A stretch of 64,000 nt of DNA from assembly GCF_003932715.1 (NCBI RefSeq), contig NZ_CP020700.1, positions 6,408,501 through 6,472,500 on the forward strand, written 5' to 3'. The translations under genes were made by a program, and so were the position numbers. Under the pieces are notes generated by a model. That model was not told the DNA's origin. It made no database searches and worked only from the letters and a program-made list of their open reading frames with translations. Below are positions 1-20,826 of the stretch, piece by piece. Source of the DNA: Streptomyces tsukubensis. GTDB taxonomy: Bacteria; Actinomycetota; Actinomycetes; Streptomycetales; Streptomycetaceae. Numbering within the stretch: the stretch's first letter is position 1; every line of letters starts with the position of its first letter.

Positions 1-437
1 TCGTCCACTCCGCCGTCGACGACCACTCCCGCCTGGCCTACAGCGAGGTCCTGCCCGACGAACGCCAGCACACCGCCGCAGGCTTCTGGCAACGCGCGAA
101 CGCGTTCTTCACCGCCCACGGCATCACCGTCCAGCGGGTCCTCACCGACAACGGCTCCTGCTACAAAGCCCGGCTGTTCACCCGGACCCTGGCCGCCACC
201 GGCATCACCCACAAGAAGATCCGGCCCTACCGGCCACAGACCAACGGCAAGGTCGAACGCTTCAACCGCACCCTCCTGGACGAATGGGCCTACCAGCGGC
301 CCTACCACTCGAACGACGAGCGGACCCGGGCCCTGGCAGACTTCCTCCACACCTACAACCACCACCGCAGCCACACCGCCCTCGGCGGACACCCACCCAT
401 CAGCCGCGTTAACAACCCTGCGGGTCAATACACCTAG
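1..437 (+). CDS. IS481-family transposase, 3' part (5' end outside window)
   Basis: The reading frame is open from base 3 to the TAG at 435-437, giving the C-terminal ~144 residues of a DDE integrase-core transposase. Visible motifs are an early Asp context (SAVDDHSRLAYSEVL), the second catalytic Asp in LTDNGS, and the Glu-containing RPYRPQTNGKVERFNRTL block typical of IS481/IS3-like rve domains. It ends in the usual helical tail (HTYNHHRSHTALGGHPP). The stop overlaps the stop of the convergent gene at 434, so the insertion sequence sits directly against the lanthipeptide cluster. I could not delimit its terminal inverted repeat. Confidence 0.9.
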   Translation, partial: VHSAVDDHSRLAYSEVLPDERQHTAAGFWQRANAFFTAHGITVQRVLTDNGSCYKARLFTRTLAATGITHKKIRPYRPQTNGKVERFNRTLLDEWAYQRPYHSNDERTRALADFLHTYNHHRSHTALGGHPPISRVNNPAGQYT

Positions 438-1549
438 AGCGGTGGGAGGGTGGGCCGAACATGGACAGTCCTTCGGATCGTACGGTCGCTTGTGCTCACC
501 GCTGCCATTAGCAGTTTGCGCAACTCGTCGGGGAGCCTTCCAGCCCCGAGGGAGCACGCGCCCAGGATCTCTCGGCACTCCCCTTGCTGTTCCGCAGAGG
601 CGAGGGCGTTGAAGAGGGGATGCCGCAGATTCTCTAGGGCGGCGTATCCGTCGTTCTGCTTGGTCGCCCGGTGATGCAGTTCATTTGCGATGTGACGGGC
701 GGTGGCGATGTCGGCTCCGATGACGTCTAGGATCGTCAGTCCGAGTCGGATGTTGAAGATGGCCGTGCCGGGTTCGGGTTCCAGTCCGCCGTACATGCCC
801 ACCAGGTTTTCCACATCGAGGTCGGCGGTTTGCTGAGCGGCGCGGCGGCAAAGCGCAGTGAGGCACGCCGTCACGGCTTGTTCCCACGGTTCGCCGGGTG
901 TGGTGGCGTGGAGGAGAGCGGTGGCGTGGACGGGGTCGTCTGCGGTGAGTGCGGCGAGAACGGCGACTTGGCGTCCGTCGAGCATCCGCTTGCCCATGCC
1001 ACGGTGTTTCTGGATGTGGGTGAGCGCGTCGTTCCACCGGCCTTGGGTGGTGAGGGCCCTTGTTCCGTCGGCGACTAGAACTGTCCATAGCCAGGTCCGG
1101 ACTTCGTGGCGGTCCTCGGCCGTCGCGGTCAGGCGTGCGGGGACGGTGACGCGGCCGAGCTGCACGTCGGTACCCATACTGACGGCTTCATACAGCGCGA
1201 GGAGGTGCTGTCGGGCGATGTCTCCGTTCCTCGCGCGGATGTGGAGCCGGGCGAGGTTGACGACGGGTTCCAGCGCCCGGATGGCGCTCGGGCCGGTCAG
1301 CGGGCAGGCGTGGAGGTAGGCGTCCGCGTGCCGATGACACAGGTCACGGGCGAGGGTGGGAAGACCGAGGTCGGAAGCGAGGAGGGCCGACTGGTTGTAG
1401 ACGGCTGAGGCTCGTGACGGATCGTTCTCCTTCGCTGCTGTCCGGGCGCGGTCGAGCAGTGCGTGGATGCGCTCATGGACCGGTGGGCAGGCGGGGCGAG
1501 GCCGGGCGATGAGTGGAAAGCGCTGGGCGATGGGGTCGTTCGGGCGCAT
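434..1549 (-). CDS. Helical-repeat (TPR-like) protein at distal end of lanthipeptide operon
   Basis: A 371-residue alpha-helical protein with no recognised catalytic motif. Ala/Leu-rich helix pairs such as RASAVYNQSALLASDLGLP suggest a TPR-like solenoid, like the sensor part of many Streptomyces XRE regulators, but no N-terminal HTH is visible. The start is the ATG at 1549 (MRPNDPIAQRF), preceded by AGGGGAA; upstream in-frame codons look like shadow sequence. It follows the stand-alone SpaB_C gene by 31 nt and is likely co-transcribed. Its stop overlaps the IS481 transposase stop, so the last residues (around RPTLPPL) may be encoded by the insertion sequence and the native C-terminus lost. 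Function unknown. Confidence 0.7.
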   Translation of the reverse strand: MRPNDPIAQRFPLIARPRPACPPVHERIHALLDRARTAAKENDPSRASAVYNQSALLASDLGLPTLARDLCHRHADAYLHACPLTGPSAIRALEPVVNLARLHIRARNGDIARQHLLALYEAVSMGTDVQLGRVTVPARLTATAEDRHEVRTWLWTVLVADGTRALTTQGRWNDALTHIQKHRGMGKRMLDGRQVAVLAALTADDPVHATALLHATTPGEPWEQAVTACLTALCRRAAQQTADLDVENLVGMYGGLEPEPGTAIFNIRLGLTILDVIGADIATARHIANELHHRATKQNDGYAALENLRHPLFNALASAEQQGECREILGACSLGAGRLPDELRKLLMAAVSTSDRTIRRTVHVRPTLPPL

Positions 1550-1580
1550 GGTTCCCCTGTGGGCGAGCGGGCCGGTGTTG

Positions 1581-2444
1581 TCAGCGGGCGGACTGGGCGG
1601 GGTCGGGAGCGCCGGTGTCCGTGCTCGTCGCGGCAGCATCGTTGTGAGCGGTGGGGTCGGGGCCGAAGACGACTTCGTTGGCGGTGGCGGCGAGGGCGGC
1701 CTGTGTGGCGTACGGCAGGCCGAGGCGGTTCCACGCGAAGATCACATGGTGGGCGAGGACCTCCCGGAGTCCTCGGTGGAGGGCTCCGGTGGTGGCGAGG
1801 GTGCTGAGTTTGTGCCCGGCGGTTGTGTAAGCACGGGCCCATTCCCTGGTACGGGCCAGGGGGCCGTTCTCGGAGGTCTGGTCGTCCGTATCCACGGTGA
1901 GCAGTCGGTGTACGGCGGCGCGTTGTCGGGTGGTGCTCCGTCGGCCGACCGGAAGGAGGCGGTGGGCGGCGACGCGGGCCCAGACGTCACCCTGTTCGTA
2001 CCAGTCGAGGCCCGCCGTGCGCATCAGGGCGGTGCACAGCAGGAGCGATATCTCCCGGCGGTGTCCACCCACGGGGTGGTGCTCGTCGCGGAGGTGGGTG
2101 AGCAGTCCGCGGCTGTCGTGGTGGAAGAAGCGGTGGGCCGTTTCCATGGCTTCCGGTCCGCCGAAGGCGTGGATCTCGGGTTCGTAGACGGCGGGGGTCC
2201 AGCCGGTGATGTGACCGGCGGTGGTCAGCGCGTCCAGTTCCCGGCCGTTCTGTGGATCGGACTCGGCGGATGGCAGGTAGCGCAGGCGCCAGCACGGGCG
2301 TTTACGGATGTGGAACCACGAGGTGATCGCGCCGTCGTCCTCGGCGGCGAACAGGATCGGGGCGAGGTGGGTCAGGGCGGTCTGTTCGGATCTGTTCCAG
2401 TCGGGGAAGGAGATGTTCACCTGCTGCCACGCGGGGCTGTCCAT
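1581..2444 (-). CDS. Stand-alone SpaB_C / thiopeptide-type bacteriocin biosynthesis protein
   Basis: A 287-residue protein of the thiopeptide-type bacteriocin biosynthesis family, the same fold as the C-terminal elimination domain (SpaB_C) of class I lantibiotic dehydratases. The N-terminus WQQVNISFPDW and the IRKRPCWRLRYLP segment match the family's start and strand pattern. ATG 2444 is preceded by GGAG (14 nt after the lanC stop). The neighbouring LanB already has its own SpaB_C domain, so this is a second copy. Established for the family: it catalyses glutamate elimination from glutamylated Ser/Thr to give dehydroamino acids. Whether this one acts on LanA or only assists is inference. Confidence 0.85.
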   Translation of the reverse strand: MDSPAWQQVNISFPDWNRSEQTALTHLAPILFAAEDDGAITSWFHIRKRPCWRLRYLPSAESDPQNGRELDALTTAGHITGWTPAVYEPEIHAFGGPEAMETAHRFFHHDSRGLLTHLRDEHHPVGGHRREISLLLCTALMRTAGLDWYEQGDVWARVAAHRLLPVGRRSTTRQRAAVHRLLTVDTDDQTSENGPLARTREWARAYTTAGHKLSTLATTGALHRGLREVLAHHVIFAWNRLGLPYATQAALAATANEVVFGPDPTAHNDAAATSTDTGAPDPAQSAR

Positions 2445-2458
2445 GTCGTCTCCAGGGT

Positions 2459-3694
2459 TCAGGCCAGGGCGAGGAAGGTATCCCAGTACGGGGCGGCGAC
2501 GGTTCCGGTGCCGACGGTGTGCAGGACCAGGGCCGCTCCGGCGGCGCCGTCGAGGAGTTCGGGGTTGCGGTCGGACTGGTCGAGCGCGGCCGTCAGCCTG
2601 TCGATCATCTGCGGCAGCTCCGCCGTGATGGCCGGGCTTCCGGTCTGGTCGGCTATCCGCCACGCGGCGTGGAGCAGGCCGGCCGTTCCGTGGCACAGCC
2701 CGATGCCGGGGATCCGGTCCAGTTGGGCCGGGTCGCGCAGGGCGGCGAGCATCGCGTTCTCGGCGGCGCGGACGCGGGCGGGCTCGTGCAGCGCGAGACC
2801 GGCGAGTTGTTGGGCACGGGCGGTGCCCGCCACTCCGTAGCACCAAGACGGCCGGGGGCGGAGAGCCGGTTCGACGTGCCCCTCTGCCGCTTGGTCGAAC
2901 GTGATGAACCCCGGCCACCACGGTTCGGTGTCGTCGCCCTGCCGCCATTGGTCGGTCCAGGCGCAGATCCGCCCGGCGGCGTCGGCCAATCCCGGGACGT
3001 CGGCACCGCGCAGGAGCGCCAGCGAGATGACGGACAGGGGCGCGCCGATGCCGTGGGCCAGTCCGAAGTTCCCGTGACCTCCGGGGAAGTCCGGCGTCGG
3101 CTCGCCATTGGGAGAGACGCCGGTCCACCACGGAGGCAGGGCGTCGCCCCGGCGCGAGGGGGGTTCGGTCAGGCGTACGAGGTAGGCGAGCGTATCGGCG
3201 GTGATCTCGTGGTCCGGGTGGCGGGTGAGGTGATGGGCGGCGAACCCGGTGAGCCCCCGGATCAGGTCGAATTCCTTCATCTCGGGCCGTTCGCCGCGGT
3301 TGATACGTGCGTGGGCCTCGGTCAGACGGCGCCGGGTGATTGAGATGGTGGCGTCCTCCAGCTTCTCCAGCGCGTTGCGGTAGCGGTCGGTCGAGCCCGC
3401 GGCGGTCTGCAGGACGAAGGCGAGGGCCGGGGCACCGAGGTAGAGGCCCGCGTTGGGGGCGGCGGTGAGGTCGTCGGAGGCGGCCTGGGAGATCCAGGTT
3501 CGGGCGGTGTCCCAGTCGCCGCGCCCGGCGTGAGCTCGTACGACGTGGAACAGGGCGATGCCAGCCGCACCCCTGGCCAGGGACTGCGGCCACGCTCGGC
3601 CGCCGCCGCCAGCTCCGGGCCCGGTGAGGTGGGGGTCGGCCAGTTCGGCGGCTAGGGCGTCGGCGGCGGCCAGCGCCTTTGGTATCGGTTTCAC
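2459..3694 (-). CDS. lanC: Class I lanthipeptide cyclase LanC
   Basis: A 411-residue lanthionine synthetase C family protein that joins Cys thiols to dehydrated Ser/Thr to form (methyl)lanthionine rings. The zinc-site motifs are visible: WCYGVAG supplies the first Cys and GLCHGTAG supplies Cys-His. Repeated Gly-rich helix starts (GHGNFGLAHGIGAPL, ARGAAGIALFH, GAAGAALVLHT) fit the alpha-toroid. The GTG at 3694 overlaps the lanB stop (GTGA), indicating translational coupling. Length is normal for LanC. It should act in the cytoplasm with LanB on the precursor encoded at 7014. Confidence 0.92.
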   Translation of the reverse strand: MKPIPKALAAADALAAELADPHLTGPGAGGGGRAWPQSLARGAAGIALFHVVRAHAGRGDWDTARTWISQAASDDLTAAPNAGLYLGAPALAFVLQTAAGSTDRYRNALEKLEDATISITRRRLTEAHARINRGERPEMKEFDLIRGLTGFAAHHLTRHPDHEITADTLAYLVRLTEPPSRRGDALPPWWTGVSPNGEPTPDFPGGHGNFGLAHGIGAPLSVISLALLRGADVPGLADAAGRICAWTDQWRQGDDTEPWWPGFITFDQAAEGHVEPALRPRPSWCYGVAGTARAQQLAGLALHEPARVRAAENAMLAALRDPAQLDRIPGIGLCHGTAGLLHAAWRIADQTGSPAITAELPQMIDRLTAALDQSDRNPELLDGAAGAALVLHTVGTGTVAAPYWDTFLALA

Positions 3695-6600
3695 GACCTG
3701 GTCCTTCCTCGTGCGGTCCAGCTCAGGGCGGCGGCGCGGGCGAGGTGCAGGCACTGGCCTTCGGCGTCGAGGTCGATCCCGGCGACGCGGGTGTGGTGGA
3801 GATGCAGCAGCTCGGGCAGCAGGACATTCACGTCGGTGGTGCCCGCCGTGTCGAGCACAGCCCGGTAGCCGGCCAGCGTCTCGCGCCGCTGGGCCCACGC
3901 GGCGGCGATCCGCTCACCGCCGGGATACCGGGTCAGGGCGTCGTGGCCGTACGGGTTGCCGAGGGCGACCGCTTGTTCGTATACGCCGCGGGTGGGGGCG
4001 GTGCTGGTGGTGCGGGCGTGGTGGATCAGCCAGGCCATCGCGTCGGCCGAGTTCCCGAGCAGGCCGGTCGTGAGGTCGATCATGCTGGTGGCGGTGACGG
4101 CTTGGGCGTCGAGGCCGCTGTTCGCCGTGCTGGCGGCGAGCTGCGCGGCAGCGGCCTCGGAGTCCGCCGCGAAGAACGCTTCGGCGGCGTCGATCGCCGC
4201 CGGCCCGCCGAAGCGGGCGGTCTCGGGGAAGTCGGTGTCCCAGCGCACCCGGGAGATCAGCCCGGCCCGGCGCAGTGCCCGGGTCCAGCCGCCGATCGCC
4301 GCCGGGGCGCCCTCGGCGTGGTCGGCCGGTACGACGAGCCGGAGCCGTAAATGCTCGTCGGGGTCGCGGTAGGGCAGGAACCACCACCGGGTCGTACCGC
4401 CGATTTCCGACAGCAGTTCGGGCAGACGGCCCAGGATGCCGCCGTGGCGTTCGGGGCGGGCGTAGAGCTGAAAGTGGAACCTGCCATCGCAGCCGGGGAA
4501 GTGCCCGTGCCCGTCCGATGTCCCGGTCTCGCGGTCCAGCCACCACGGTGCCCTCCGTCCCGGGCCAGTTCGGGCGAGAGGAATGACCAGCTCGTGGGGG
4601 CGCCCGCCGATCCACCCCGCGTCCGGGGCCGCCTCCACGCGGAGCACGGCAGTGCCCGAACGCTGTACCTGCGCGCGAAGCAGCACCCGGTGCGCCGGTT
4701 CATCCAGGTCGAGACGGAGGCGCTGGTCGCCGTCGCCGACGTACACCGTGCTCGGGACGGCGACCTGTTCCCGCCACGCGGCCAGGGAGGAGTCCCACCG
4801 TGGCTGGTCCGCCTCGCGGTCGGCGAGGTCGGCGGCGGTGAGCAGCCACCGGGCCGGGGACAGGATCGTGCGGCCGTAGCGCACTGCGGGAAGGTACGGC
4901 AGCGTTGTCGCGGCTCCCCAGTCGAAGACCGCGCACGGGGCGCCCATCGCATGGGTGGCCTCGGCCAGGAACCGGACCAGCGGATGGGTGCGGTGGACCG
5001 GCTCCACCGCGTTGAGGGTCACGAACTCCAGCGGGCGCCGCCGGGACCGCGAAACCAGGTAGAGGCGGTGGACATCGGCGGTCACCGCGATGTCGTCCAG
5101 GAGCACTCGCTCCCCGGTGTGCTTGTGGCACTCGCCCCCGACGAGGACCGCGGGCATCACGGCCGGGGCGCGGGCGACGTTCTCGGTGGATGCGTGGAGC
5201 GGGGGCACGGATATCTGCACGGGCAGGGCGCCGTCGGTCGCGGTCGCCGCCGTCGCGTACGCCTTTGCCATCCGCTCGCGATCGTCGGCGTCGAGGAGGT
5301 GGAGGAACCGTCCGGTCACCGTCCCAGCGGTCCGGGACACCCCGGTGACCGCGAGCGTGAACTCCCCGTCCCCGAGGGCGTCGGTGCTGGCGGCGTTGAT
5401 ACGGGCGATCAGCTCCGTCGTCGGCTGAACGCCGATGTCGGGACCGATCAGGGTGAGCACGTTGATCATGGCATCGTCCACCACGATCTCGTGCTGCCGG
5501 CGCAGGGCCGCGTTCTGCGCGAGCGCCAGCAGTTTTCCGTCCCTCTCGGTCAGCGGGGCGCTCGCCGGGGCGGGCGGTCCGCCGAGGAACCCGGCCGGGT
5601 AGCCGATGCCGGTGTCACCGTCCACCGCGTTCAGGACCGGGACAAGGGCGCGCGGGCCGTACCGTTCCAGGAAGCGGCTGTGCCAGTTCGCCCATGCGCG
5701 GCTGAGGAACGGTTGGCGTGCCAGACGTACGAGTGCCGTCGCGGCCCGTGCCGCTTCGTCGGCGACCGTGGTCGGGACCGTCGCCTCCCCGTCGATCCGC
5801 AGGTCGGTCCGGAGTACCGGTGCGGTGCCGGGGGCGATGTGGCGCATCTCGGCGGTGAGCTGGGCCCGTTGTTCGCCGTATTCGGGGGAGGTGTGGGGCC
5901 GGGCCAGAGCGTGGGTGAGAGACCGGAGCCGCGCGACGGTGGCGCCGGCCGGCTGGAGGTTCCCGGCTTCGGCCGCGTCGAGGGCGTTCAGAAGGTGGTT
6001 CAGCGGGTTCGTCGTGGTCATCGGGGCGCGGAGATTCGTGACCAGGAGGCGCTGGGCAATCAGATCCGCCAGCAGCTTGGCGATCACCTCGGCGGGCACG
6101 CGGGGGAAGTCGCCGGCCAGCTTGGCGGCGAGGTCCGTGACCCGGATGGGATGCCGGGCCGTAGCCAGGGCCGAGGTGACCGGCGAGGTGGCGCGGACCT
6201 CTACCCGGGCCGGGGCGCCGCCCGAGCCGCCGGTGCCCCGGTGGTCGAGCACCCAATGCCCGTCCTTCTCCGCCACCAGCGAATGGGTCCGCACCATCAG
6301 GCGCGGCAGCAGGGCTCGGTCCGCTTCCAGCCGCTCGATCACCGTGGTCAGCCACACCGCGTCGGCTCTGACGACGGCCCGGTGCCCGGAGCCGATACGC
6401 ACCGTCGCCGCGTCGGCCAAGCTCACGGGTGCCACTCCGGCGAAGAAGCCGAACGGGGTGGCCCTGCTCGACGCCCGCAGCAGATACCGCAGGACGGCGA
6501 ACATCGCCTTCCGTACGACGCGTTCGGGCAGGTCCTGTTCATCGCGGATGTCCCGGACGCGGCGGGCCAGCGCGGGACTGGCCTGCTCCAGAGCTTCCGC

Positions 6601-6741
6601 GAAGCCGGGTATCCGAAGGGTTCTCTCCAGCCACGCCCGCCAAGAGTCCGCGTCTCCGCCCGGGTCGGGCCACGGCTGGACGAGTTCGTCCGGGTCCCAG
6701 GCCCCGGCCCGCAGCAGCGCGGCATCGACGTGCGCGTACAC
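3691..6741 (-). CDS. lanB: Class I lanthipeptide dehydratase LanB
   Basis: A full-length dehydratase of about 1016 residues: an N-terminal glutamylation domain (Lant_dehydr_N; SSRATPFGFFAGVA near residue 95, a family hallmark) and a C-terminal SpaB_C elimination domain (HFQLYARPERHG ... WWFLPYRDPDEHLRLRL). Established for the family: it uses glutamyl-tRNA to glutamylate core Ser/Thr and then eliminates Glu. I prefer GTG 6741, which has AAGGGGAG six bases upstream; a TTG at 6747 sits directly on that site. There is an in-frame TTA leucine codon (bases 4348-4350), implying dependence on the bldA tRNA. The gene is preceded by a strong hairpin separating it from lanA. Confidence 0.95.
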   Translation of the reverse strand: MYAHVDAALLRAGAWDPDELVQPWPDPGGDADSWRAWLERTLRIPGFAEALEQASPALARRVRDIRDEQDLPERVVRKAMFAVLRYLLRASSRATPFGFFAGVAPVSLADAATVRIGSGHRAVVRADAVWLTTVIERLEADRALLPRLMVRTHSLVAEKDGHWVLDHRGTGGSGGAPARVEVRATSPVTSALATARHPIRVTDLAAKLAGDFPRVPAEVIAKLLADLIAQRLLVTNLRAPMTTTNPLNHLLNALDAAEAGNLQPAGATVARLRSLTHALARPHTSPEYGEQRAQLTAEMRHIAPGTAPVLRTDLRIDGEATVPTTVADEAARAATALVRLARQPFLSRAWANWHSRFLERYGPRALVPVLNAVDGDTGIGYPAGFLGGPPAPASAPLTERDGKLLALAQNAALRRQHEIVVDDAMINVLTLIGPDIGVQPTTELIARINAASTDALGDGEFTLAVTGVSRTAGTVTGRFLHLLDADDRERMAKAYATAATATDGALPVQISVPPLHASTENVARAPAVMPAVLVGGECHKHTGERVLLDDIAVTADVHRLYLVSRSRRRPLEFVTLNAVEPVHRTHPLVRFLAEATHAMGAPCAVFDWGAATTLPYLPAVRYGRTILSPARWLLTAADLADREADQPRWDSSLAAWREQVAVPSTVYVGDGDQRLRLDLDEPAHRVLLRAQVQRSGTAVLRVEAAPDAGWIGGRPHELVIPLARTGPGRRAPWWLDRETGTSDGHGHFPGCDGRFHFQLYARPERHGGILGRLPELLSEIGGTTRWWFLPYRDPDEHLRLRLVVPADHAEGAPAAIGGWTRALRRAGLISRVRWDTDFPETARFGGPAAIDAAEAFFAADSEAAAAQLAASTANSGLDAQAVTATSMIDLTTGLLGNSADAMAWLIHHARTTSTAPTRGVYEQAVALGNPYGHDALTRYPGGERIAAAWAQRRETLAGYRAVLDTAGTTDVNVLLPELLHLHHTRVAGIDLDAEGQCLHLARAAALSWTARGRTRS

Positions 6742-6763
6742 CGGCAACTCCCCTTCGTGGAGC

Positions 6764-6799
6764 GCGGTGCCCGGCCGGCCGAAGTCGGCCGGGCACCGC
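6764..6799 (-). terminator. Hairpin between lanA and lanB (attenuator / processing site)
   Basis: A perfect inverted repeat with 14-bp arms (6764-6777 and 6786-6799) and an 8-nt loop, lying between the lanA stop (6820) and the lanB start (6741). There is no T-run. Such hairpins in lantibiotic operons are known to act as partial terminators or mRNA stabilisers that give more precursor than enzyme; that role is inferred here. Confidence 0.75.
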
Positions 6800-6819
6800 G
6801 GTTCAGTCCTTCGTGCCCG

Positions 6820-7014
6820 CTACGGGCAGGTGGTCGAGCAGGCGGACTCGCAGGTCACGCCGCAGCCGTCGTCGGTCATCCGGATGAGCCGGTCGGCCGA
6901 CGGGCCGGACTCCACGATCGAGACATCCAGGTCCCAGTCCTCGAAGCTCTCCTCCTCGCCCGCGTTCTGCGGGTGCGGCGCTAACGCCGCATCTTCGATC
7001 TGCTGTACGGACAC
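6820..7014 (-). CDS. lanA: FxLD-family lanthipeptide precursor
   Basis: A 64-residue precursor. The leader carries the family box as WDLDVSIVESG (residues 27-37), with Trp in place of the Phe of FxLD. The C-terminal core MTDDGCGVTCESACSTTCP has Cys 51, 55, 59 and 63 and Thr 47/54/61/62 plus Ser 57/60 as candidate dehydration sites. GTG 7014 has GGGAGG five bases upstream. Codon 11 is TTA (bases 6982-6984). It sits between the methyltransferase and lanB. The conserved TDDG segment supplies Asp residues that the neighbouring PIMT-like enzyme could modify. No exporter or leader protease lies nearby. Confidence 0.93.
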   Translation of the reverse strand: MSVQQIEDAALAPHPQNAGEEESFEDWDLDVSIVESGPSADRLIRMTDDGCGVTCESACSTTCP

Positions 7015-7085
7015 AACAACCTCCCTGATAGTTGGGTGGTGCGAATGCCCCGTGCCCCCGTGACGTGCCGCAGGGGCCGGGGAGC

Positions 7086-8306
7086 CTACGACCAGGAGAA
7101 GGCGACGGCGCCAAGCCGCTTCGCCACAACCCCCTGGGACGGTTCAGCCGTACCGGCGGGCATCGGCCGGTACGAGATACGGGCAGCCCCGCGCCGCTGG
7201 TGGTCCGACGCCCATCGGCGAAGCAGCTCGACGTAGCGCGCGGCGACCTGTTCGGCGTCGGGACCGTGGGCGAGGACACCGCTCTCGAAGCCACCAGTCT
7301 CCTCGTTCGCTCGCTTCGTGCGGTAGGCAAAGCTGCCGCCGCTGACCAGTGCCGGGACGCCGCGCGTCACCGACAGAGCGAGAAGCCCCTGATCGACCAG
7401 GTCCTTGCTGCCGTGGAGCATCACCATCTCCGGCGTGTTCGTCGCCAGGAACAGTTCCAGCTCGTCCGGCAGATCGAACGCTGCCCCAGACCACACCTCC
7501 AGCCGGGCCGAGCGCACAGCGGCGGCCAAGGCGTCGGTGTCGAAGTCCTGCTTCTGATCATCGACGCGCAGGGCGAGGCCATCGGTGACGTGAACGAGTC
7601 GCTCGGTGTACGCGCTGGCACCCTGCATGGGCACGAAACCACACAGGCGGTAGCTGTCGCTGACCAGCTCCGCTTCCCGGCCGCCGGCCCGGTCGAACGC
7701 GATCGACCGGGTCAGCCCGCGCATCCGGAGCGGGACGACGATCCGGCCGCGCTCGGAGAGCTGGTCCAGCCACGCCGACGGGAGGTCCCAGGCCCCGGCG
7801 GTGACGATGATCCGGTCGAACGGAGCCAGCTCCGGTACCCCGACGGCGGCGTCGGCCCGCACCACCTCGACCTGTTCGTACCCAGCCGCGTCCAGACACT
7901 TCCGGGCGCGCTCGACGATCTCCGCGTCGATGTCCACCGAGATTGACGCGCCCTCTTTGCCGACCAGCTCGGCGATCAGCGCGGCGTTATAGCCACCGGA
8001 GCCGACTTCGAGGACCCGCATGCCGGGCTCGATTCCGGCCTGCTCCAGCATCACCGCCTGGATGTGTGTGGCCGACAGCGAGCTGAGTGCCGTACCGTCC
8101 TCGTCCCGCTTGATCACCAGGGCCTGGTTGGCTGCGTACGCGGCCTTCAGCGGCTCGCCGACGGCGAACAGATGCCGGGGCACAGCGGCCACCGCGTCGG
8201 CGACGGAGTCAGAGGTGATCGCCCCCAGATCGCGCAGCTCACGCACCATGGCCGCCCGCAGCGAAGCCGCTTCCTCATCAATATTCTTGTCTCGTACCGT
8301 AGTCAC
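7086..8306 (-). CDS. PIMT-like methyltransferase of the FxLD lanthipeptide system
   Basis: A 406-residue SAM-dependent methyltransferase with a protein-L-isoaspartate O-methyltransferase core: AVPRHLF near residue 46, the SAM motif VLEVGSGGYNAALIAEL near 100, acidic VDID, and post-I motif DRIIVTAGAWDLP. A ~170-residue C-terminal extension is typical of the FxLD-system methyltransferases. Established: related lanthipeptide LanS enzymes (e.g. OlvSA) methylate an Asp side chain, leading through succinimide to isoaspartate. Start GTG 8306 has only a weak ribosome site. It is the first gene of the operon, 71 nt before lanA. Target is probably an Asp in the TDDG core segment (inference). Confidence 0.9.
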   Translation of the reverse strand: MTTVRDKNIDEEAASLRAAMVRELRDLGAITSDSVADAVAAVPRHLFAVGEPLKAAYAANQALVIKRDEDGTALSSLSATHIQAVMLEQAGIEPGMRVLEVGSGGYNAALIAELVGKEGASISVDIDAEIVERARKCLDAAGYEQVEVVRADAAVGVPELAPFDRIIVTAGAWDLPSAWLDQLSERGRIVVPLRMRGLTRSIAFDRAGGREAELVSDSYRLCGFVPMQGASAYTERLVHVTDGLALRVDDQKQDFDTDALAAAVRSARLEVWSGAAFDLPDELELFLATNTPEMVMLHGSKDLVDQGLLALSVTRGVPALVSGGSFAYRTKRANEETGGFESGVLAHGPDAEQVAARYVELLRRWASDHQRRGAARISYRPMPAGTAEPSQGVVAKRLGAVAFSWS

Positions 8307-8741: not shown

Positions 8742-9632
8742 CTACATCAGTTCACGCAGCCATTGGGCGAGTTGGAGGGCTGTGGGTCTTTGGGGCTCGG
8801 GTGCCCAGAGGACGGTTGCGAGGGCTTCTTCGAGTTCGGGCCAGGCTGTCAGGGTGCTTCGGGGCATGATTTCGGTGAGGAGGACGCGGCGGAGGTAGGT
8901 GGTCGGGAGGCCGCGAGTGCTGGCGATTCCGGCTTTGGTGAAGTCGTGGTGCCAGGTTCCGCTGGAGGCCCACCACAGGCTGGCTGCCAGCGTGTACGTG
9001 TCATCGGACTGCGTTGTGTACGCCGGTGCCGTGGCGTCCTCGGCTCGGGCGAGGAGTTCGGGGGACGCAAGCTGGACGGGTCCGCCGCGGAAGCGTCCGG
9101 AGGGGCGCAGGTGCTGGTGGTGTGAGGTCCAGGTGACGTCCAGCAGGGCGATGTTTCCGTCGGGTTGGTGGATGGCGTGGTGGGGCTGGATGTTGCCGTG
9201 GACCCAGCCGGCCTGGTGGAGGCGTGCGACGGCTGCGGCCAGAGCGACGGCGGCGGCGAGGGGTTCGCGTCGTTCCCAGGAGCCTTCGCGGGCGGGTTCG
9301 AGGGCCTTCCAGGTGGTGGGGCCTTCGAGCCATGGGGTGATGAGCCACGCGATGGTGCCGAGGTGGCCCGAGACGGCGTGGCGGCCGTAGGAGAGCGCGG
9401 GAACGGCTGTACAGGTTCGTCGGAGGGCGGCGGTGTGCCGGGCGAGGACCGCTGCCCCGTCGTGGGTGCCGACGCGTACGGTCCAGGAGCCTTGCGGGCC
9501 TCGGGTCCGCCACGTCGTCTGGCGGCGGTTATGTGCAAGCAGAGCCCACTCGGCGGGGGTTCCGGCGAGGCGTTCGGCTTGTCGTCGGCAGGGTTCCGGG
9601 ATGGTGTCGAGCTGCGGGACGGTACGGGTCAT
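8742..9632 (-). CDS. Kinase-fold protein with degenerate catalytic loop
   Basis: A 296-residue protein with protein-kinase/APH-like C-lobe features: WVHGNIQPHHAI at the catalytic-loop position and ALLDVTWT at the metal-binding (DFG-like) position. The catalytic Asp of HRD/HGD is Asn here (HGN), and the usual Asn five residues on is His, so it may be a pseudokinase. TQSDDTYTLAASLWW resembles the activation-segment helix of Ser/Thr kinases. ATG 9632 overlaps the CYTH-like gene stop (ATGA), so the two are coupled. It ends a four-gene operon from 11555. Substrate unknown. Confidence 0.75.
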   Translation of the reverse strand: MTRTVPQLDTIPEPCRRQAERLAGTPAEWALLAHNRRQTTWRTRGPQGSWTVRVGTHDGAAVLARHTAALRRTCTAVPALSYGRHAVSGHLGTIAWLITPWLEGPTTWKALEPAREGSWERREPLAAAVALAAAVARLHQAGWVHGNIQPHHAIHQPDGNIALLDVTWTSHHQHLRPSGRFRGGPVQLASPELLARAEDATAPAYTTQSDDTYTLAASLWWASSGTWHHDFTKAGIASTRGLPTTYLRRVLLTEIMPRSTLTAWPELEEALATVLWAPEPQRPTALQLAQWLRELM

Positions 9633-10239: not shown

Positions 10240-11130
10240 TCAGCAGGGCGCGGGGCTCCGGGGACGGAATGAGCGGGCTGTGGCTTTGGTGTCCGCGGGC
10301 GGTTGTGCCGGTAGTCCGCGGCGTCGTGCGTGGTGTTGCTGGGCGGCTCGCAGGACGTCCAGGCTTTCGGTGCGGGGTAGTGCCTGGGTGCGGCAGGTAT
10401 CGAGGACGGCGGGAATCACCGACTGTTCGGGGGTGGGGTACCAGGCGCCCAGGGCGAGGGTTTCGGCGGAGTCGAGGGGTGTGGGCCGGAACCAGTACTG
10501 GGCGTAGACGGTGGCGGGGTGGGGCCGGAGGTGGGTGGCGAGCCGGCTGGGGCCCCAGGGGATGACGTGGATGGGCGTGTACGGGGCCAGGCCGATCAGA
10601 TGGTCGATCTGTTCGGCGGCGATGTCGGGACCGCCGAGCTGGTAGAGCGCCATCTCGCCGAGATAGACCATGAGCTTCTTTCCGTGCCCGGGATGGCGGA
10701 GAGCGCGGGAAGGGCTGTGGAGCGGTATGTCGCCCGCTTCCCGGAGGGCCTGTTGGTATCCGGTGGCGCGCAGGGGTGCGGGGATGGTGTCCAGGGCGGC
10801 GAGGACGAGGGTCCCGGACAGGGATTCGAGGGCCGCGAGGCGGTCGTAGGAACCGGTGCCGTAGTCCCGTACGGAGCCGGAGCTGTGGGCGAGTTGGAGG
10901 AGTTCGCAGGCATGGACGGGCCAGTCGGGCGCATACCGTTCGATGATCCGATGGATGACCGGTGCCTCACGGGGGGTACTGCGGCCGGTTTCGGCACGGT
11001 GCAGGGCCCGGGTGCTGATTCCGGCCTCGGTGGCGAGCTGCTGGGCGGTCAGGCGGTGGGCCTGGCGCATGGCGCGCAGGACGGCGCCGCCGACGACGGG
11101 CCCGGGGCGGGGCCGGGCCGAGGCCGTCAT
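10240..11130 (-). CDS. HTH regulator, XRE + Scr1/DUF5753-type C-terminal domain
   Basis: A 296-residue XRE-family regulator. The N-terminal HTH covers about residues 17-65 (LRAMRQAHRLTAQQLATEAGISTRALHRAETG). The C-terminal half has the Scr1/DUF5753 pattern (ALDTIPAPLRATGYQQALREAG ... QIDHLIGLAPYTPIHVIPWGPS). Such proteins are abundant in Streptomyces, often as pairs with small partners. Its ATG (11130) overlaps the NUDIX stop, and the CYTH gene follows by 14 nt, so it probably autoregulates the operon. No DUF397-type partner is adjacent. Confidence 0.88.
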   Translation of the reverse strand: MTASARPRPGPVVGGAVLRAMRQAHRLTAQQLATEAGISTRALHRAETGRSTPREAPVIHRIIERYAPDWPVHACELLQLAHSSGSVRDYGTGSYDRLAALESLSGTLVLAALDTIPAPLRATGYQQALREAGDIPLHSPSRALRHPGHGKKLMVYLGEMALYQLGGPDIAAEQIDHLIGLAPYTPIHVIPWGPSRLATHLRPHPATVYAQYWFRPTPLDSAETLALGAWYPTPEQSVIPAVLDTCRTQALPRTESLDVLRAAQQHHARRRGLPAQPPADTKATARSFRPRSPAPC

Positions 11131-11555
11131 AGTGCCCCTTCCCGACCGGCCGTGCTGCAGGCCTGGTCGATGTGCTGTTGGACGGGGGCGTGGAACCCGC
11201 CGGGGACGAAGGCGGGGAGCTGGGCGTAGGGGACCCAGGCGACACCGGCGATCTCCGCGGCGCTGGGCCGGTGAGCCGTCTCGGCGACGGCGGTGCAGAG
11301 CACGTAGTGGATCAGGCGGCCTGTGGTGGGGTGGACGCGGGAGCCGAGGAGGTTTACGGCACGGACACGGAGACCGGTCTCTTCCTCGGCTTCGCGGACG
11401 GCGGCTTCCTGCGGGGTCTCATGGTTTTCGACTTTTCCGGCCGGGAGCTGCCAGGTCAGCCCCGGCTCGGGTACGGCGCGCAGAACCAGGAGCAGTCTGC
11501 TGTTGTTGATGATCACCGCAGCCGCGATTTCGGGCTGGGTCGGGCGTGGCGGCAC
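11127..11555 (-). CDS. NUDIX hydrolase
   Basis: A 142-residue NUDIX protein with a complete Nudix box: GKVENHETPQEAAVREAEEETGL (residues 40-62) has the G, E, REAEEE and G positions for metal and diphosphate hydrolysis. IAAAVIINNSRLLLVLR is the first strand pair and WQLPAGK the substrate-facing turn, as in MutT-type enzymes. GTG 11555 is preceded by GGAGGAA. It is the first gene of the NUDIX-HTH-CYTH-kinase operon, suggesting a pathway on phosphorylated or nucleotide substrates (inference). The natural substrate cannot be told from sequence. Confidence 0.9.
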   Translation of the reverse strand: MPPRPTQPEIAAAVIINNSRLLLVLRAVPEPGLTWQLPAGKVENHETPQEAAVREAEEETGLRVRAVNLLGSRVHPTTGRLIHYVLCTAVAETAHRPSAAEIAGVAWVPYAQLPAFVPGGFHAPVQQHIDQACSTAGREGAL

Positions 11556-11706: not shown

Positions 11707-13728
11707 CTACAGTTCGTCCAGGAGGCCGGAGTTGGCCTGGACGTCGTGTGTCAGGACCAGGCCCTGCCGGGGCAGCGCCCCGAGGGCCGCAGCGAGGGCC
11801 TCGCGCTGCACGGCCGCGGCGGGTGTGGTGTCGATCAGACCGAAGACGTCGGTGTAGCGGTCGTCGGACGCCGGGGTGAAGAAGTCACCCGCCGAGACTG
11901 TACGGCCGGCGGCATCGGTGAGGGCGGGCTTCGCCGCGGGGTCGATCCCGGGGAAGAGCACCCGGGCCGCGTAGCCGGTGGTAGCGAGGCCGAGGCCGAG
12001 CCACGGGAGCTGGTCGGGGAAGAACTGCACCTTCAGCTCCTTGCCCGCGGGGCTTCGCAGCGGCTGCCGTGAGCCCTCGGCCAGGGCTGCGGTGACGGCC
12101 GCGTTCTGGGTGGGGTGCATCTGCTCCCCGGCGAGGACGCGGGCCCGTACACCGTCGTACTCCCCGAGGGCGTCCAGCAGCCCGAGTCCGATCGCGGCCG
12201 CGGACGGCCACGGCAGAACCCGGACCCGGGTGTTGTCCTCCAGACGGGCGAAGACACGGTCGTTGGCCAGCAGCCTCCAGTTCCCGGACCGGGCCAGGGC
12301 CAGGGCCGTCGTGGTCTTTCCCGCGCCCTTGCCGCCGAGCACCAGCACCGTTTCACCGTCGCCCCGCACGGCCGCGGAGGCGTGGAGGACGTGCCAGCCG
12401 GCCTCGTGCAGCTGGGCGCGCATCAGTTCCCGGGCGACCCGCGCCGCCGCGGTGGCGACCGCGGTCTCCGTGCACCCGACGATGTGCATGCACCGATCCT
12501 TGGGGCGGTAGTGGTAGGCGAGGTCGAGACCGGGGTGCGCGGCGCTGACGGTCCCCTCGGTGTCGTCGTGCCGGTACACCATCACCGCCCCGGCGAAGTC
12601 GGCGGAGTCGTTCGGGTGGTCGGTCACGCTCTGCACGAGCCGGGACACCGCACCGGGGTCGACATGGGCGTCGACGACGGGGCCGTCACCGTCGCGCGGC
12701 GGTGTGGCCGTTTCGGTGGCGTCCCACCAGGGGCGGACGTAGCGGGCCGCCCACCGGGGGACGGCCGCGGTCTGGCTGGTGACGGTTACATGGTGACCTG
12801 CGGTGGAGATACGGGTGTGCACAGGGGTCTCTTCTCGTGTGATGTGGTGCCGGACGGTGTGGAAGGCCGCGCGGACCTTGTCGGCCGCGGCGGCGTGACG
12901 ACGGCGGTGTTCGGGGCCGAGGCCCGGGTCGAGGACGACGCCCTGACCACCGATGAACCGGACGGGGACACCGGTGCAGGATCCGTCGTGGGGTGTGGAG
13001 AGTTCGACGGTGCCGTCGACGAGGCCGAGGGCGTGGTGAAGGGCTGAGAGGACGGCTCCGGCCGGACCGGACCGTGCCCGCCCGAGCCCCTCGTTGATCC
13101 GCCGGGGCCGTTCGGAGAGCGCCGCGCGGGCCACGGCCGGATCGACCTCGACCGGGGCGCCGCCGACGGTCGTCATGCAGGGGACGGCGGCATCGCCGTG
13201 CTCGCCGACGACCCGGCCCGAGACGGCCGAGACGGATACGCCGTGCATCCCGGCGAGCGTGAGCCGCAGCCGGGCGGTATCGGTGGCGGAACCGACACCG
13301 TAGACCCGGCTCACCCCGGATGCCCGTGCGAACAGCCAGGTCATGGGGTCGACGGGGTTCGTCACCACGATGACGGGCCCGTGGTATCCGGCGAACACCC
13401 GGCCCAGACGGGCGATGAGCGGAGCGTTCACCCTGAGCCCGGCCATCCGCACATCGCGGACGGCGGTGTTACTGAAGGCGGCCCGCGGGCAGACGACTAC
13501 CGCGTCGCAACTCAGCATCTCGGCTACGGGCACGTGGGCGAGCCGGGTCGGGGAGTTGAGGAGGACGGCCAGGTCTTCCAGGTCGGCGACGAGTGCGTCC
13601 GCCGACCTTCGGGTCCGGGAAGTGACGAGGATCGTGTCGGTCCAGCCGGCCGCGGTCAGCAGGGTGCCGACCGTGTGCCCGACCGCCCCGGCACCGATGA
13701 TCCCCACACTGTCGATCCGGACGCTCAC
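11707..13728 (-). CDS. Fused lactate/malate dehydrogenase-like + HPr-kinase-like P-loop protein
   Basis: One uninterrupted 673-residue frame. Residues 1-295 form an LDH/MDH-like enzyme: GIIGAGAVG (NAD site, 9-17), TNPVDPMTW (123-131), SATDTARLR (147-155) and the catalytic GEHGD (175-179) are all present. Residues 303-673 look like the HPr-kinase-like proteins of actinomycetes: Walker A GGKGAGKT (465-472) and an acidic LLANDRVF (487-494). GTG 13728 overlaps the APH-gene stop (GTGA). An internal GTG at residue 303 (bases 12820-12822) has GAGAAGAG upstream, so the kinase part might also be made separately. I know of no described fusion of this kind; substrate unknown. Confidence 0.85.
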   Translation of the reverse strand: MSVRIDSVGIIGAGAVGHTVGTLLTAAGWTDTILVTSRTRRSADALVADLEDLAVLLNSPTRLAHVPVAEMLSCDAVVVCPRAAFSNTAVRDVRMAGLRVNAPLIARLGRVFAGYHGPVIVVTNPVDPMTWLFARASGVSRVYGVGSATDTARLRLTLAGMHGVSVSAVSGRVVGEHGDAAVPCMTTVGGAPVEVDPAVARAALSERPRRINEGLGRARSGPAGAVLSALHHALGLVDGTVELSTPHDGSCTGVPVRFIGGQGVVLDPGLGPEHRRRHAAAADKVRAAFHTVRHHITREETPVHTRISTAGHHVTVTSQTAAVPRWAARYVRPWWDATETATPPRDGDGPVVDAHVDPGAVSRLVQSVTDHPNDSADFAGAVMVYRHDDTEGTVSAAHPGLDLAYHYRPKDRCMHIVGCTETAVATAAARVARELMRAQLHEAGWHVLHASAAVRGDGETVLVLGGKGAGKTTTALALARSGNWRLLANDRVFARLEDNTRVRVLPWPSAAAIGLGLLDALGEYDGVRARVLAGEQMHPTQNAAVTAALAEGSRQPLRSPAGKELKVQFFPDQLPWLGLGLATTGYAARVLFPGIDPAAKPALTDAAGRTVSAGDFFTPASDDRYTDVFGLIDTTPAAAVQREALAAALGALPRQGLVLTHDVQANSGLLDEL

Positions 13729-14890
13729 CACCGACACCGGCTGACTGCCGTCGCCGTGTTGTCGAGGACCAGAGGCCAGAGTCGTTGTCCGTCGGTGACG
13801 GCTTCCAGCGTCCGGCTGTTCCGGTCCAGCAGTCCGGTCACCAGACTCTCCGCAAGGTCGACCCGGTCCAGGTGAACGGGGAGCGGCAGCAGAGCGGGAG
13901 CCGTGCTCACGGTATGGAGGACGGATGCCGTGTCCATCGCCCAGAGGAGCACGAGCTGCCACAGCCATCGGGACGGATCCGGCGTGGCGCGGGCCAGGGC
14001 GAAGGCGAAGTCTCCTACCCCGGACACGATCCGCTTGGCACTGCGGGGCCGTGAACCGCACAGGTGCAGCAGCAGACGCGAAACCAGCTTCGCCGCGTCG
14101 AGAATCACTGGTCCGCAAGTCAGCCCGGGATCGAGGAATACCGGTCGGCCCGCCCCACCCGTCACGAGGATGTGCTCCGGCTTCAAGTCCCCGAACACCA
14201 CCCCCCGGCCCTCACCACCCGGGTCGGGGAGCGCAGCGGCCAGCGGAAGCAGCCGCTCGACGACGGTCCCCAGCACACCGTCCGGCTTCGGCAGACCGGT
14301 GAACTTCCGGGCGAACGTCCCGGGGATCGTGCATCCGGGGGTTGCGGTCTCCCTGACGATGCGCGCGGTCGCGGGCTGGGCCAGTGCGTCCAGGGCGCGC
14401 ACCACCTGTGTCAGCAGATCACCGGTCTGTGTCGGGCGCTGGGCCACCAGGTCGGCGAGCGTCCGGCCTGCCGCCGCCTCGGTGAACAGGACCGCGTTCC
14501 GCAGCGCGGGCCGTGGCGCGCCGAGGCCCGCGCTGTGCAGGAGTCCGTAATGCACGGCCTGGCGCTCCAGCAGATTCCCTTCGCCGGCCTCGTAGACGGC
14601 CTGGGCCTCCTGCACATCGCCCCAGGTGCCGTGCGTGCCACGCAGGACGGAAGCAAGGGAGACGCCGAGGAACTCGAACTTCGCGACGTACGGGCGCCGG
14701 TCGACCGCGAGCTTGCAGACGTACGACGTTATCGACGGAACGTGCTCGCCGAGCACGACACCGGCGCCCGGCCACTGGCCGGCTGCTGCAGCAGCCACCC
14801 GGGTCCGGGCGTAGCGCAGGACGTCGTCCACCGGCAGCGGCCGTGCCGGAGCCGGGACGGGAATGGGGTGAGGGGGTAAGGCCACGATCA
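13725..14890 (-). CDS. APH-like phosphotransferase
   Basis: About 388 residues of the aminoglycoside-phosphotransferase/choline-kinase fold: VVFGDLKPEHILV carries the catalytic Asp (FGD in place of HGD) and VFLDPGLT the metal-binding Asp; YVAKFEFLG supplies a likely ATP-binding Lys. The start is ATG 14890 or, better spaced from GGAGG, GTG 14884. It is translationally coupled to the dehydrogenase-kinase fusion, so the two should act together, perhaps phosphorylating and oxidising one small molecule or peptide. Resistance to an antibiotic is possible but not supported by context. Confidence 0.82.
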
Positions 14891-15003
14891 TCTCCTCCAC
14901 ACAGGAGACCGAAGGGATAGAAACGCGCAACGGTCGAGCTCGCCACGAGGCGAAGCCCGGCTCGGGCAAGCAGGAAAGAGCCGTGCACAGGCCGGAGGCG
15001 GGG

Positions 15004-15195
15004 CTACAGTCCGGCTCTCTGGAAGGCCGCGAACAGCCAGCCCAGGACGACACCGGTAAACGTGCACGTCAGAACGATCAGAACGAGGCCAAAGCCCCAG
15101 GCACGGACGCTCTGGTCATGCCCGTTGCGCAGAGCCCGGCGCGGATGAGTCACCCAGCCGCACAAACGACGGGCCAGCGAAAAAATCGCGCTCAC
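15004..15195 (-). CDS. Small single-span membrane protein
   Basis: A 63-residue protein: a basic amphipathic N-terminus (SLARRLCGWVTHPRRALRNGH), then one hydrophobic segment (WGFGLVLIVLTCTFTGVVLGW, trimmed here) near residues 36-56. GTG 15195 overlaps the stop of the DUF6302-like gene (GTGA), which supports the start and indicates coupling. No family recognised; the topology suggests a cytoplasmic-in anchor. Confidence 0.6.
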   Translation of the reverse strand: MSAIFSLARRLCGWVTHPRRALRNGHDQSVRAWGFGLVLIVLTCTFTGVVLGWLFAAFQRAGL

Positions 15196-15680
15196 GACCG
15201 GCCCCCGGACAGCGCCGGGGGAACACGCCCGGACCACGAGACCGGGCCGGTCGACAGCGCGGAATGCACGGCCCGGGACAGCACGCCGACGAAGCCTGCG
15301 ATCGCGTCCTCGCTGTAACCGTAGAACCGGCCCAGTACCTCATCGTCGTCGACACCCGGAGCACGCTCCCCCCACACCACGGTGTGACAGGTATCGCGGT
15401 CCTCGGACCAACGCATCCGGACCCCGGGGAACCCGCCCCGGCCCATGAGAAGCGCGCGGACATCAACGGCCAGCACAACGTCCGGGCACGACACGAAGCC
15501 GCCTCGGCGCACCCCGCCGACCGGTACGGCCAGCCACTCCCCACGTCTGCCGTAGAGGGTGACGGCCCTGGCCAACAGCGTGGGATCGGAAAGGCGGTCG
15601 CGGAAGTAGGCGTACTCGGAATCGGCCCGCGCGGCGGGCCGGAGCCGTAACCGGGGGAGACAAGCAGAGGTGGTGAACAT
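15192..15680 (-). CDS. DUF6302-like protein
   Basis: A 162-residue soluble protein resembling the Streptomyces DUF6302 family: YAYFRDRLSDPTLL, the LAVPVGGVRRGG turn, GRGGFPGVRMRW and DTCHTVVWGE are the recognisable blocks. ATG 15680 has a weak AGAGAA site. A TTA codon occurs near the start (bases 15648-15650). The next gene is coupled by a GTGA overlap. Function unknown; the family commonly lies near small regulatory genes in accessory DNA. Confidence 0.7.
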   Translation of the reverse strand: MFTTSACLPRLRLRPAARADSEYAYFRDRLSDPTLLARAVTLYGRRGEWLAVPVGGVRRGGFVSCPDVVLAVDVRALLMGRGGFPGVRMRWSEDRDTCHTVVWGERAPGVDDDEVLGRFYGYSEDAIAGFVGVLSRAVHSALSTGPVSWSGRVPPALSGGRS

Positions 15681-19641: not shown

Positions 19642-20688
19642 CTACAGCGTGGCGGACCACCTGCCGCGGGACAGGGTGGTCCGGCCGTCCGGGGCAACGG
19701 TCACCCGGGCGTGGTGGATCGGCAGTTCTCCCCAGGTGTTGAGACGGTCGCGGATCTTCTCCAGCAGCTCCCACAGCCGGCGGGGTCCGCCTTGGTGAAC
19801 AGCGGTTGGTGCGTCGTGGCGGCTGGGCGCAGTGGCACGGGCCCAGGAGCCGTCGGGGTGGGCCATGCGCAGGGTGACTGTGCCGTCGTCGTGCTGGTGG
19901 ATGCGGTGGTCGATGCCGGGGGCCTTCAGGTGCAGGTTCGACTGGACGTCCCAGGAGTCGGGGACGTACAGGAGGGGGTAGGGGCTGGTGGTGATGGTCT
20001 CGCCGTCGCCGTCCGCCTTCTCCCACACGTCGGTCACGGGCAGAGTGGGGTGGTAGTCGTCACCGGCCCGGGTGGCCATGAACGACGCCTTGTCCGGGGT
20101 GACGTAGCCGCTCGCCCCGCCATCTTCGGTCTTGTCGGCGACGACGAGCAGGCAGGTGCCGGCGATGGCCGTCACCAGCCTTCCCCCGGGGCGCAGCGCG
20201 GTGAGCCAGGAGGCGGGGACAGTGCTGACTGCCACGGCGGACACGATGCGGTCGAAGTCGGCGGGGAGTTCGCCGGTGATGTCGCAGACGGTGGTGTGCG
20301 GGCGGAGGCCGATGTCGTTCAGCCGGTCGGTGGCGGTTTGAACCAGGTAGGGGTCGATGTCGATGCTTGTCACCTGGGCATCGCCGAGGCGGTGACACGC
20401 GAGGGCGGTGCCGTATCCGGTACCGGTGGTGACCAGGAGGCGCGAGGTGTCCGCGAGAGCGGCGTGCCGGTACATGGTCACGACCAGGGAGGGCAGGGTC
20501 GAGGAGGATGTCGGCCACCGGCCGTAGGGGACGACGGTGCCCGGGGCGGTGAGGTCGGCGTGGGCAGTTCCGATCCGCGTGACCAGCGTGGTGTCGGAGT
20601 ACGCAGCATCCAGCCACGCCGTATCGCCGCCGCGCATATCCTCCGCGGCCTCTACTACGGCACCGGCACCTGTGACCCTTCTCGTCAT
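19642..20688 (-). CDS. Methyltransferase of ATP-grasp peptide (graspetide) type, orphan
   Basis: A 348-residue PIMT-related methyltransferase: AAYSDTTLVTRIG and TSSSTLPSLVVTMY, then the SAM-binding LLVTTGTGYGTALACHRLGD and acidic SIDIDP. This block order matches methyltransferases of ATP-grasp peptide maturation systems. The usual ~50-residue N-terminal part (with the VPRHxFVPRF-type segment) is missing, and position one of motif I is degenerate (VTTGTG for LEIGTG), so it may be truncated or diverging. No ATP-grasp ligase or precursor is seen next to it. ATG 20688 lacks a good ribosome site; an in-frame ATG at 20715 is possible. Confidence 0.75.
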   Translation of the reverse strand: MTRRVTGAGAVVEAAEDMRGGDTAWLDAAYSDTTLVTRIGTAHADLTAPGTVVPYGRWPTSSSTLPSLVVTMYRHAALADTSRLLVTTGTGYGTALACHRLGDAQVTSIDIDPYLVQTATDRLNDIGLRPHTTVCDITGELPADFDRIVSAVAVSTVPASWLTALRPGGRLVTAIAGTCLLVVADKTEDGGASGYVTPDKASFMATRAGDDYHPTLPVTDVWEKADGDGETITTSPYPLLYVPDSWDVQSNLHLKAPGIDHRIHQHDDGTVTLRMAHPDGSWARATAPSRHDAPTAVHQGGPRRLWELLEKIRDRLNTWGELPIHHARVTVAPDGRTTLSRGRWSATL

Positions 20689-20796
20689 ATGGGCCCAGGA
20701 GCGCTTGTGAAGCATCCGGCCCGACGGCACGGTGCCTGCGGGACCCGGGAGCCCGGTGGGCTGACGATCTCGTGGTGTTCGGCCCCGCCATTCTGA

Positions 20797-20826
20797 CCGA
20801 TGCCATTCGCGTGGCGAATGCATCGG
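20797..20826. repeat. Inverted repeat near the methyltransferase start
   Basis: Arms of 14 and 13 nt (20797-20810, 20814-20826) pair with a single bulged C around a GTG loop. It lies about 110 nt upstream of the methyltransferase start and could be an operator or a terminator-like hairpin. Confidence 0.55.

Follow-up and report, generated by a model that had tools for sequence, protein, structure and literature searches.

A 64,000-nucleotide stretch of the Streptomyces tsukubensis genome (NZ_CP020700.1, positions 6,408,501 to 6,472,500; hereafter the window, part of an 8.0-Mb genome) carries on its minus strand a set of linked enzyme genes. We tentatively interpret these as a transferable three-gene Streptomyces biosynthetic cassette encoding a kinase of the aminoglycoside phosphotransferase (APH) fold, an L-2-hydroxyacid dehydrogenase and a P-loop kinase resembling HPr kinase (HprK) and phosphoenolpyruvate carboxykinase (PEPCK), in this order. 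The most likely role suggested by the sequences is that of a mobile biosynthetic cassette that either tailors a peptide or yields a 2-hydroxy acid in phosphorylated form. Support at the sequence level comes from the gene order, overlapping ends, correlated divergence, retained active sites, recurrent switching between fused and separate forms, plasmid carriage and enrichment beside maturation genes of ribosomally synthesized and post-translationally modified peptides (RiPPs). The cassette is real and conserved, is built of known enzyme folds, and is apparently undescribed within the open-access literature searched. A sequence-only reading of this DNA had found no known pathway to match it, and we likewise found no description of the trio in that literature, including PMC7268733, PMC12291118, PMC13001092 and PMC13097080; none of six terms sought occurs in PMC10787088. 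In the window, the dehydrogenase, which resembles lactate and malate dehydrogenases (LDH/MDH), and the P-loop kinase are fused:

13725..14891, minus strand: APH-like kinase gene, first in the cassette; 388 amino acids (aa), start taken as the ATG at 14891; PF01636 at 23.1 bits (cut-off 23.2)
13725..13728, minus strand: GTGA, the four bases in which the stop codon of the APH gene overlaps the start codon of the fusion
11707..13728, minus strand: fusion of the LDH/MDH-like dehydrogenase and the HprK-like P-loop domain (P0001); 673 aa, single open frame
12823..13728, minus strand: dehydrogenase domain of the fusion, residues 1-302
11707..12822, minus strand: HprK-like P-loop domain of the fusion, residues 303-673; first codon an in-frame GTG

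We assembled 58 HprK-bearing loci: the window, 40 loci from 39 genomes of a 392-genome sample of the genus, five from a survey of 394 genomes of the class, and 12 plasmids out of 28 with a matching record. The 40 genus-sample loci were picked from the strongest matches, with G147, G224, a second G256 locus (L021) and weaker matches excluded; in the whole sample, 81 genomes have a match at E ≤ 0.001, and for 42 of them it reaches E ≤ 1e-50. The LDH gene is adjacent to HprK in 48 of the 58 loci and the APH gene is present too in 44, on the same strand and in the order APH, LDH, HprK. The three-activity module that had been proposed from the window is conserved in other genomes, with the APH neighbor retained at 44 of 48 LDH-bearing loci. 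Among the 41 loci chosen by either half (genus sample and window), 31 contain LDH and 28 the full trio. The other 17 (12 plasmids and five genomes) were picked for matching both halves, so that only APH counts as independent evidence there; it is present in 16, including 12/12 plasmids. At L070 (8019-11076) the whole trio is there in pieces, apparently a decaying copy. Thirty-five of the 44 trios were aligned; the last four, and those in which a gene call was broken or uncertain, are not among them. Across these 35 loci the three proteins diverge in step, their pairwise identities being correlated (Spearman 0.75, 0.68 and 0.69; permutation p 0.001).

The 28 plasmid records with the trio or parts of it are all from Streptomyces, and ten are predicted to be mobilizable. 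Their annotations name the APH-like protein 'phosphotransferase' or 'hypothetical protein', the dehydrogenase 'lactate dehydrogenase' or 'NAD(P)-binding domain-containing protein', and the HprK-like protein 'hypothetical protein'. No cassette match was found in 50,697 phage records. In the class survey 12 genomes match at 1e-15, eight of them of the same genus; three of the remaining four match the LDH half only (31-33% identity) and one matches part of the HprK half. Single-part relatives in protein searches are named Streptosporangium, Actinocorallia and Pseudonocardiaceae. A pattern scan of genome contigs gave 32 matches, none of which was confirmed. A role in anti-phage defence was considered and dropped, given the absence of phage matches and of any notable PADLOC match (GajB, 14.2 bits over a P-loop stretch).

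The usual state of the cassette is three genes with mostly overlapping ends, as measured in 24 of 27 unfused LDH-HprK pairs. The window shows the fused state: a stop-free frame containing all the dehydrogenase and P-loop motifs named in the sequence-only reading runs from 13728 to 11707 on the minus strand, and the upstream APH-like gene (14891-13725) overlaps it by GTGA as described. The in-frame GTG at 12822 lies at the position expected for the start of a separate HprK gene. That the fusion is a sequencing or assembly error merging two genes could be argued from the relatives, most of which are two genes, from the unfused state of P0029 and P0031, the nearest relatives of the window's HprK half, and from listed multi-domain proteins (P0016, P0062) that resemble frameshift products. 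We consider such an error extremely unlikely. The coding signal is clean and unbroken across the junction, and the P0002 cluster, which is the window's fusion protein, has 3 member sequences on 6 contigs. Moreover, among the matches listed in the protein search (E ≤ 1e-10; 81 proteins out of 7994 candidates, including the window's own P0002) are 21 other full-length LDH-HprK fusions of 661-683 aa. This tally includes P0021, marked partial by its source, and leaves out P0026 (664 aa, 74% covered); many of the remaining matches are stand-alone HprK proteins of about 375 aa. In the genomes, G303 is fused with no stop, whilst a single stop codon separates the LDH and HprK halves in G305 and in G279; the class survey adds two fusions (G725 and G761).

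Phylogenetic trees built for each half (70 rows for HprK, 63 for LDH) require four changes of state, and well-supported branches make at least three of these unavoidable. Approximately unbiased (AU) tests, run after the trees had been seen, reject the grouping of all fusions in one clade (p-AU 8.4e-7 for HprK and 7.6e-7 for LDH). Some of the changes could be splits instead of fusions. Because the nearest relatives of the window protein in the trees are unfused, its fusion probably arose within its own lineage. Fusion is not the defining state, most homologues being two adjacent genes. Homologues are not, however, consistently two genes, as the proposed refutation would require: 21 other full-length fusions are listed, and a single clade of them is rejected. 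The fusion is a natural variant, and it suggests that the reductase and the P-loop kinase work together.

Several further candidates were set aside. P0016 (1070 aa) and P0062, apparent APH+LDH(+HprK) triple fusions, were not counted, their APH end being apparently out of frame; P0028 and P0030 have a frameshifted look; and a 767-aa LDH joined to transposase-like sequence at L039, seen by eye, was not treated as meaningful.

The dehydrogenase half has the LDH/MDH-family fold in a structure search, in which this half filled the match list. R94, N124, R153 and H177 are kept in 35/35 aligned trios and D150 in 34/35. R94, D150, R153 and H177 align with the catalytic residues of solved LDH/MDH structures, which we take to be Arg109, Asp168, Arg171 and His195 in LDH numbering. 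The residue after strand β-2 is Ser in 32/35, followed by Arg (29) or Gly (6), whereas the same cofactor position is Asp in the MDH match 30iz and Gly-Arg in the Methanocaldococcus jannaschii NAD(P) enzyme 1hye; the cassette enzyme therefore looks NADP(H)-dependent. It also looks suited to free 2-oxo acids. Thr occupies, in 29/35, the position aligned with LDH Gln102, which is an Arg in MDH. Compared with L-2-hydroxycarboxylate, lactate and malate dehydrogenases such as 1hye and 3pqe, the cassette enzyme has a divergent C-terminal part, Ser-Arg/Gly rather than Asp at the cofactor position, and a fused or coupled kinase. Pfam analysis of the 673-aa protein gave a mixed result: Ldh_1_N passed its cut-off (34.6 bits against 27), but Ldh_1_C (18.8 against 22.6) and the HprK family PF07475 (15.3 against 33.3) fell below theirs, as did TIGR04352 (19.5 against 200).

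The HprK half is predicted from sequence to be an HPr-kinase/PEPCK-like P-loop kinase. It contains a Walker A motif, GGKGAGKT, and an LLAND motif with one of the two Asp residues of HPr kinase, and H449, K471, D490, E564 and K566 are conserved in 35/35 trios. The P-loop and LLAND are shared with the HPr kinase/phosphorylase 1jb1 (profile E 5.4e-5 over 45 positions), while PEPCK is matched by the HprK-half profile at E 0.6-0.9 only. In contrast to both enzymes, the N-terminal region and the C-terminal motifs HPTQ, ExKxQ and EDRYPD are unmatched. The APH-like kinase shares the kinase fold, catalytic Asp, Lys and metal-binding Asp with the class V lanthipeptide kinase LxmK and with TvaE, 5-methylthioribose kinase and APH enzymes. 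Its K71, D235, H240 and D254 are present in 35/35 trios, and a PF01636 domain was precomputed in 13 of the 39 relatives listed. The likeness to class V lanthipeptide kinases (LanK) is at the level of the fold: LxmK and TvaE are absent from the sequence matches at E ≤ 1, and the profile gave no LxmK at E ≤ 1. The cassette kinase has His240 where APH enzymes carry Asn. LxmK carries Gln226 at this position, according to PMC12291118.

Two loci have other genes beside HprK, as seen by eye. At L058 (7044-10601) the HprK gene has a 4-base overlap with a glycerol-3-phosphate-dehydrogenase-like gene, another dehydrogenase type, and follows a threonyl-tRNA-synthetase-like gene. At L069 (4777-10653 and 13843-14553) a remote HprK, 40% identical to that of the window, follows TIM-barrel-like, APH-like and 906-aa NAD-binding-motif proteins, which have similar activities and apparently derive from unrelated proteins.

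These features suggest the following scheme. R153 of the dehydrogenase would bind the carboxylate of a small 2-oxo acid, which would be reduced with NADPH via H177/D150, giving an L-2-hydroxy acid. Its hydroxyl, or a partner joined to the product, would then be phosphorylated by the attached P-loop kinase, with fusion or translational coupling holding reduction and phosphorylation together; the APH-fold kinase may phosphorylate a second site or a peptide. The product would pass to downstream maturation genes: the FxLD lanthipeptide cluster in the window, a radical SAM and methyltransferase pair elsewhere, or nothing recognized. In a narrower version the fusion would be a bifunctional 2-oxo-acid reductase/2-hydroxy-acid kinase that makes a phosphorylated 2-hydroxy acid, e.g. 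2-phospholactate, and would serve several RiPP or cofactor-like pathways as a building-block enzyme of a new kind. 2-Phospholactate is a building block of coenzyme F420 in archaea, and a CofE-like (F420-0:glutamate ligase-like) gene lies near two of the 58 HprK loci (L095 and L069, the two genes being 72% identical). This weak hint may be coincidence, and we regard the narrower version as highly unlikely.

Downstream of the cassette and on the same strand, the window carries an FxLD lanthipeptide gene set, separated from it by a NUDIX gene, a regulator and two further genes. These and other features of the window around the cassette are:

11127..11555, minus strand: NUDIX hydrolase gene, after the cassette
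10240..11130, minus strand: XRE-type regulator with DUF5753
8742-9632, minus strand: kinase-like protein with weak likeness to class IV lanthionine synthetases (27.8 bits, cut-off 650)
434-8306, minus strand: FxLD lanthipeptide cluster as a whole
7086..8306, minus strand: FxLD-system methyltransferase fxlM, PIMT family (TIGR04364 564 bits, cut-off 320)
6820..7014, minus strand: FxLD lanthipeptide precursor, 64 aa, with leader FEDWDLDV and a Cys-rich end
3691..6741, minus strand: LanB dehydratase, both domains
2459..3694, minus strand: LanC-like cyclase
1581..2444, minus strand: separate Lant_dehydr_C protein
15192..15680, minus strand: DUF6302 gene upstream of the cassette
19642..20823, minus strand: another methyltransferase of the PIMT type, sharing 58% identity over 330 aa with the methyltransferase after the cassette and radical SAM gene on plasmid L095
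26276-27633, plus strand: small HTH_17 protein and phage-type integrase, which point to an integrated mobile element

A search for att direct repeats in the first 30 kb, and for tRNA genes in the vicinity of the integrase, found none. By tblastn, NUDIX is near HprK in the window only, apart from a short stretch in L063; annotated NUDIX genes are also near the cassette on plasmids L093 and L100. A DUF6302 homologue in L044 sits between the cassette and FxLD genes.

Like FxLD class I clusters with a PIMT-type methyltransferase, the window has fxlM, precursor, LanB and LanC. FxLD genes also follow the cassette in L044, in L034-L036 (near-identical, one lineage) and, in part, on plasmid L101, and the partners are downstream on the same strand in 5/5 chromosomal FxLD loci (three lineages). 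A pair of a radical SAM gene and a TIGR04188-type methyltransferase gene follows the cassette in L045, L049, L050 and L054 (L049/L050/L054 near-identical) and on plasmids L095 and L102. The loci L041, L093 and L100 have different radical SAM genes after the cassette; these markers were taken from the loci where they were first seen, so that other types elsewhere could be missed. Two loci with HprK but no LDH, L055 (where there is an ATP-grasp gene too) and L068, likewise carry a TIGR04188-type methyltransferase. An FxLD methyltransferase lies within 10 kb in 5 of 41 loci, against 0.09 expected under a uniform model, and a TIGR04188-type methyltransferase in 7 of 41, against 0.37 (a lower bound). 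When these are collapsed to 3 and 5 lineages, respectively, the uniform-model P values are 1e-4 and 3e-5. The 10-kb counts and the totals were made by hand (at least 150 rows for TIGR04188), and uniform placement is a simple chance model; in Streptomyces chromosomes, RiPP genes and variable genes are grouped together.

Some further observations concern the RiPP genes themselves. Elsewhere in the genome of the window, five more FxLD methyltransferases exceed the cut-off, one of them only together with its neighbors in the frame. The radical SAM proteins at L045 (7915-8832) and L095 (10102-10992), which follow the cassette, end in tails with Cys and Asp; these tails might serve the isoaspartyl-type methyltransferase next to them as an internal core peptide. 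At L068 (10704-10976) the stretch between HprK and the methyltransferase looks like what is left of this radical SAM gene (37% over 91 aa). In L101 (11645-11812) a 55-aa FxLD-type precursor is beside fxlM with no LanB match in the stretch, possibly a degenerate or split cluster.

The RiPP connection allows another reading, in which the trio tailors a RiPP: both kinases would phosphorylate precursor Ser/Thr residues and the dehydrogenase would reduce a 2-oxo group on the peptide. Class V LanK phosphorylates precursor Ser/Thr, lasso-peptide kinases phosphorylate their precursors, and some class I lanthipeptides bear a lactyl group at the N-terminus. Predicted phosphotransferases are mentioned for some graspetide groups in PMC13097080. 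The RiPP hint of the sequence-only reading is thus upheld as far as the statistical enrichment goes, but action of the trio on the FxLD peptide is not; a nearly identical FxLD core peptide occurs in L075, which has no adjacent cassette. The genome of L075 (G158) has an incomplete-looking cassette elsewhere (L061), and the core comparison is weak, a recognizable precursor being found by FxLD motif scan in 4 of 20 clusters more than 10 kb from a cassette match. For FxLD clusters the trio is an optional neighbor: 40 genomes, themselves chosen for carrying the HprK family, have 38 FxLD methyltransferases that pass the cut-off, and the trio is close to 5 of these. We consider this peptide-tailoring reading doubtful.

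Alternatively, the trio could have a regulatory or stress role, such as metabolite sensing or small-molecule inactivation, its RiPP proximity arising from shared variable, mobile parts of the genome. Upstream of the cassette on 12 annotated plasmids there is a regulator-named gene in nine, an 'ATP-binding protein' in five and a DUF6415 gene in three, and similar upstream genes were seen by eye at many chromosomal cassettes; the 28 plasmid records also fit this explanation. However, it does not account readily for the enrichment of two methyltransferase families above the uniform expectation or for the same-strand downstream position of the partners in all five chromosomal FxLD loci, and we judge it rather unlikely.

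Several observations weigh against the biosynthetic cassette, besides the L075 core peptide. Ten of the 58 HprK loci are without LDH. No radical SAM, fxlM or TIGR04188-type marker is downstream in 33 of the 48 LDH-HprK loci, which also speaks for the regulatory explanation, and several of the 15 marker-bearing loci are closely related. The correlation of identities, for which there is no housekeeping control, may in part be due to the shared ancestry of the host genomes.

If the biosynthetic cassette is borne out, a common gene set (42 of 392 genus genomes at E 1e-50 or better) would be a real biochemical unit of two kinases and a probable NADPH-dependent reductase. That fusions occur in nature suggests joint action of the reductase with one of the kinases, and a single purified protein would therefore be testable. 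The trio may point to a building block, or to a tailoring step added to lanthipeptides and other RiPPs, and it would provide a new marker for genome mining.
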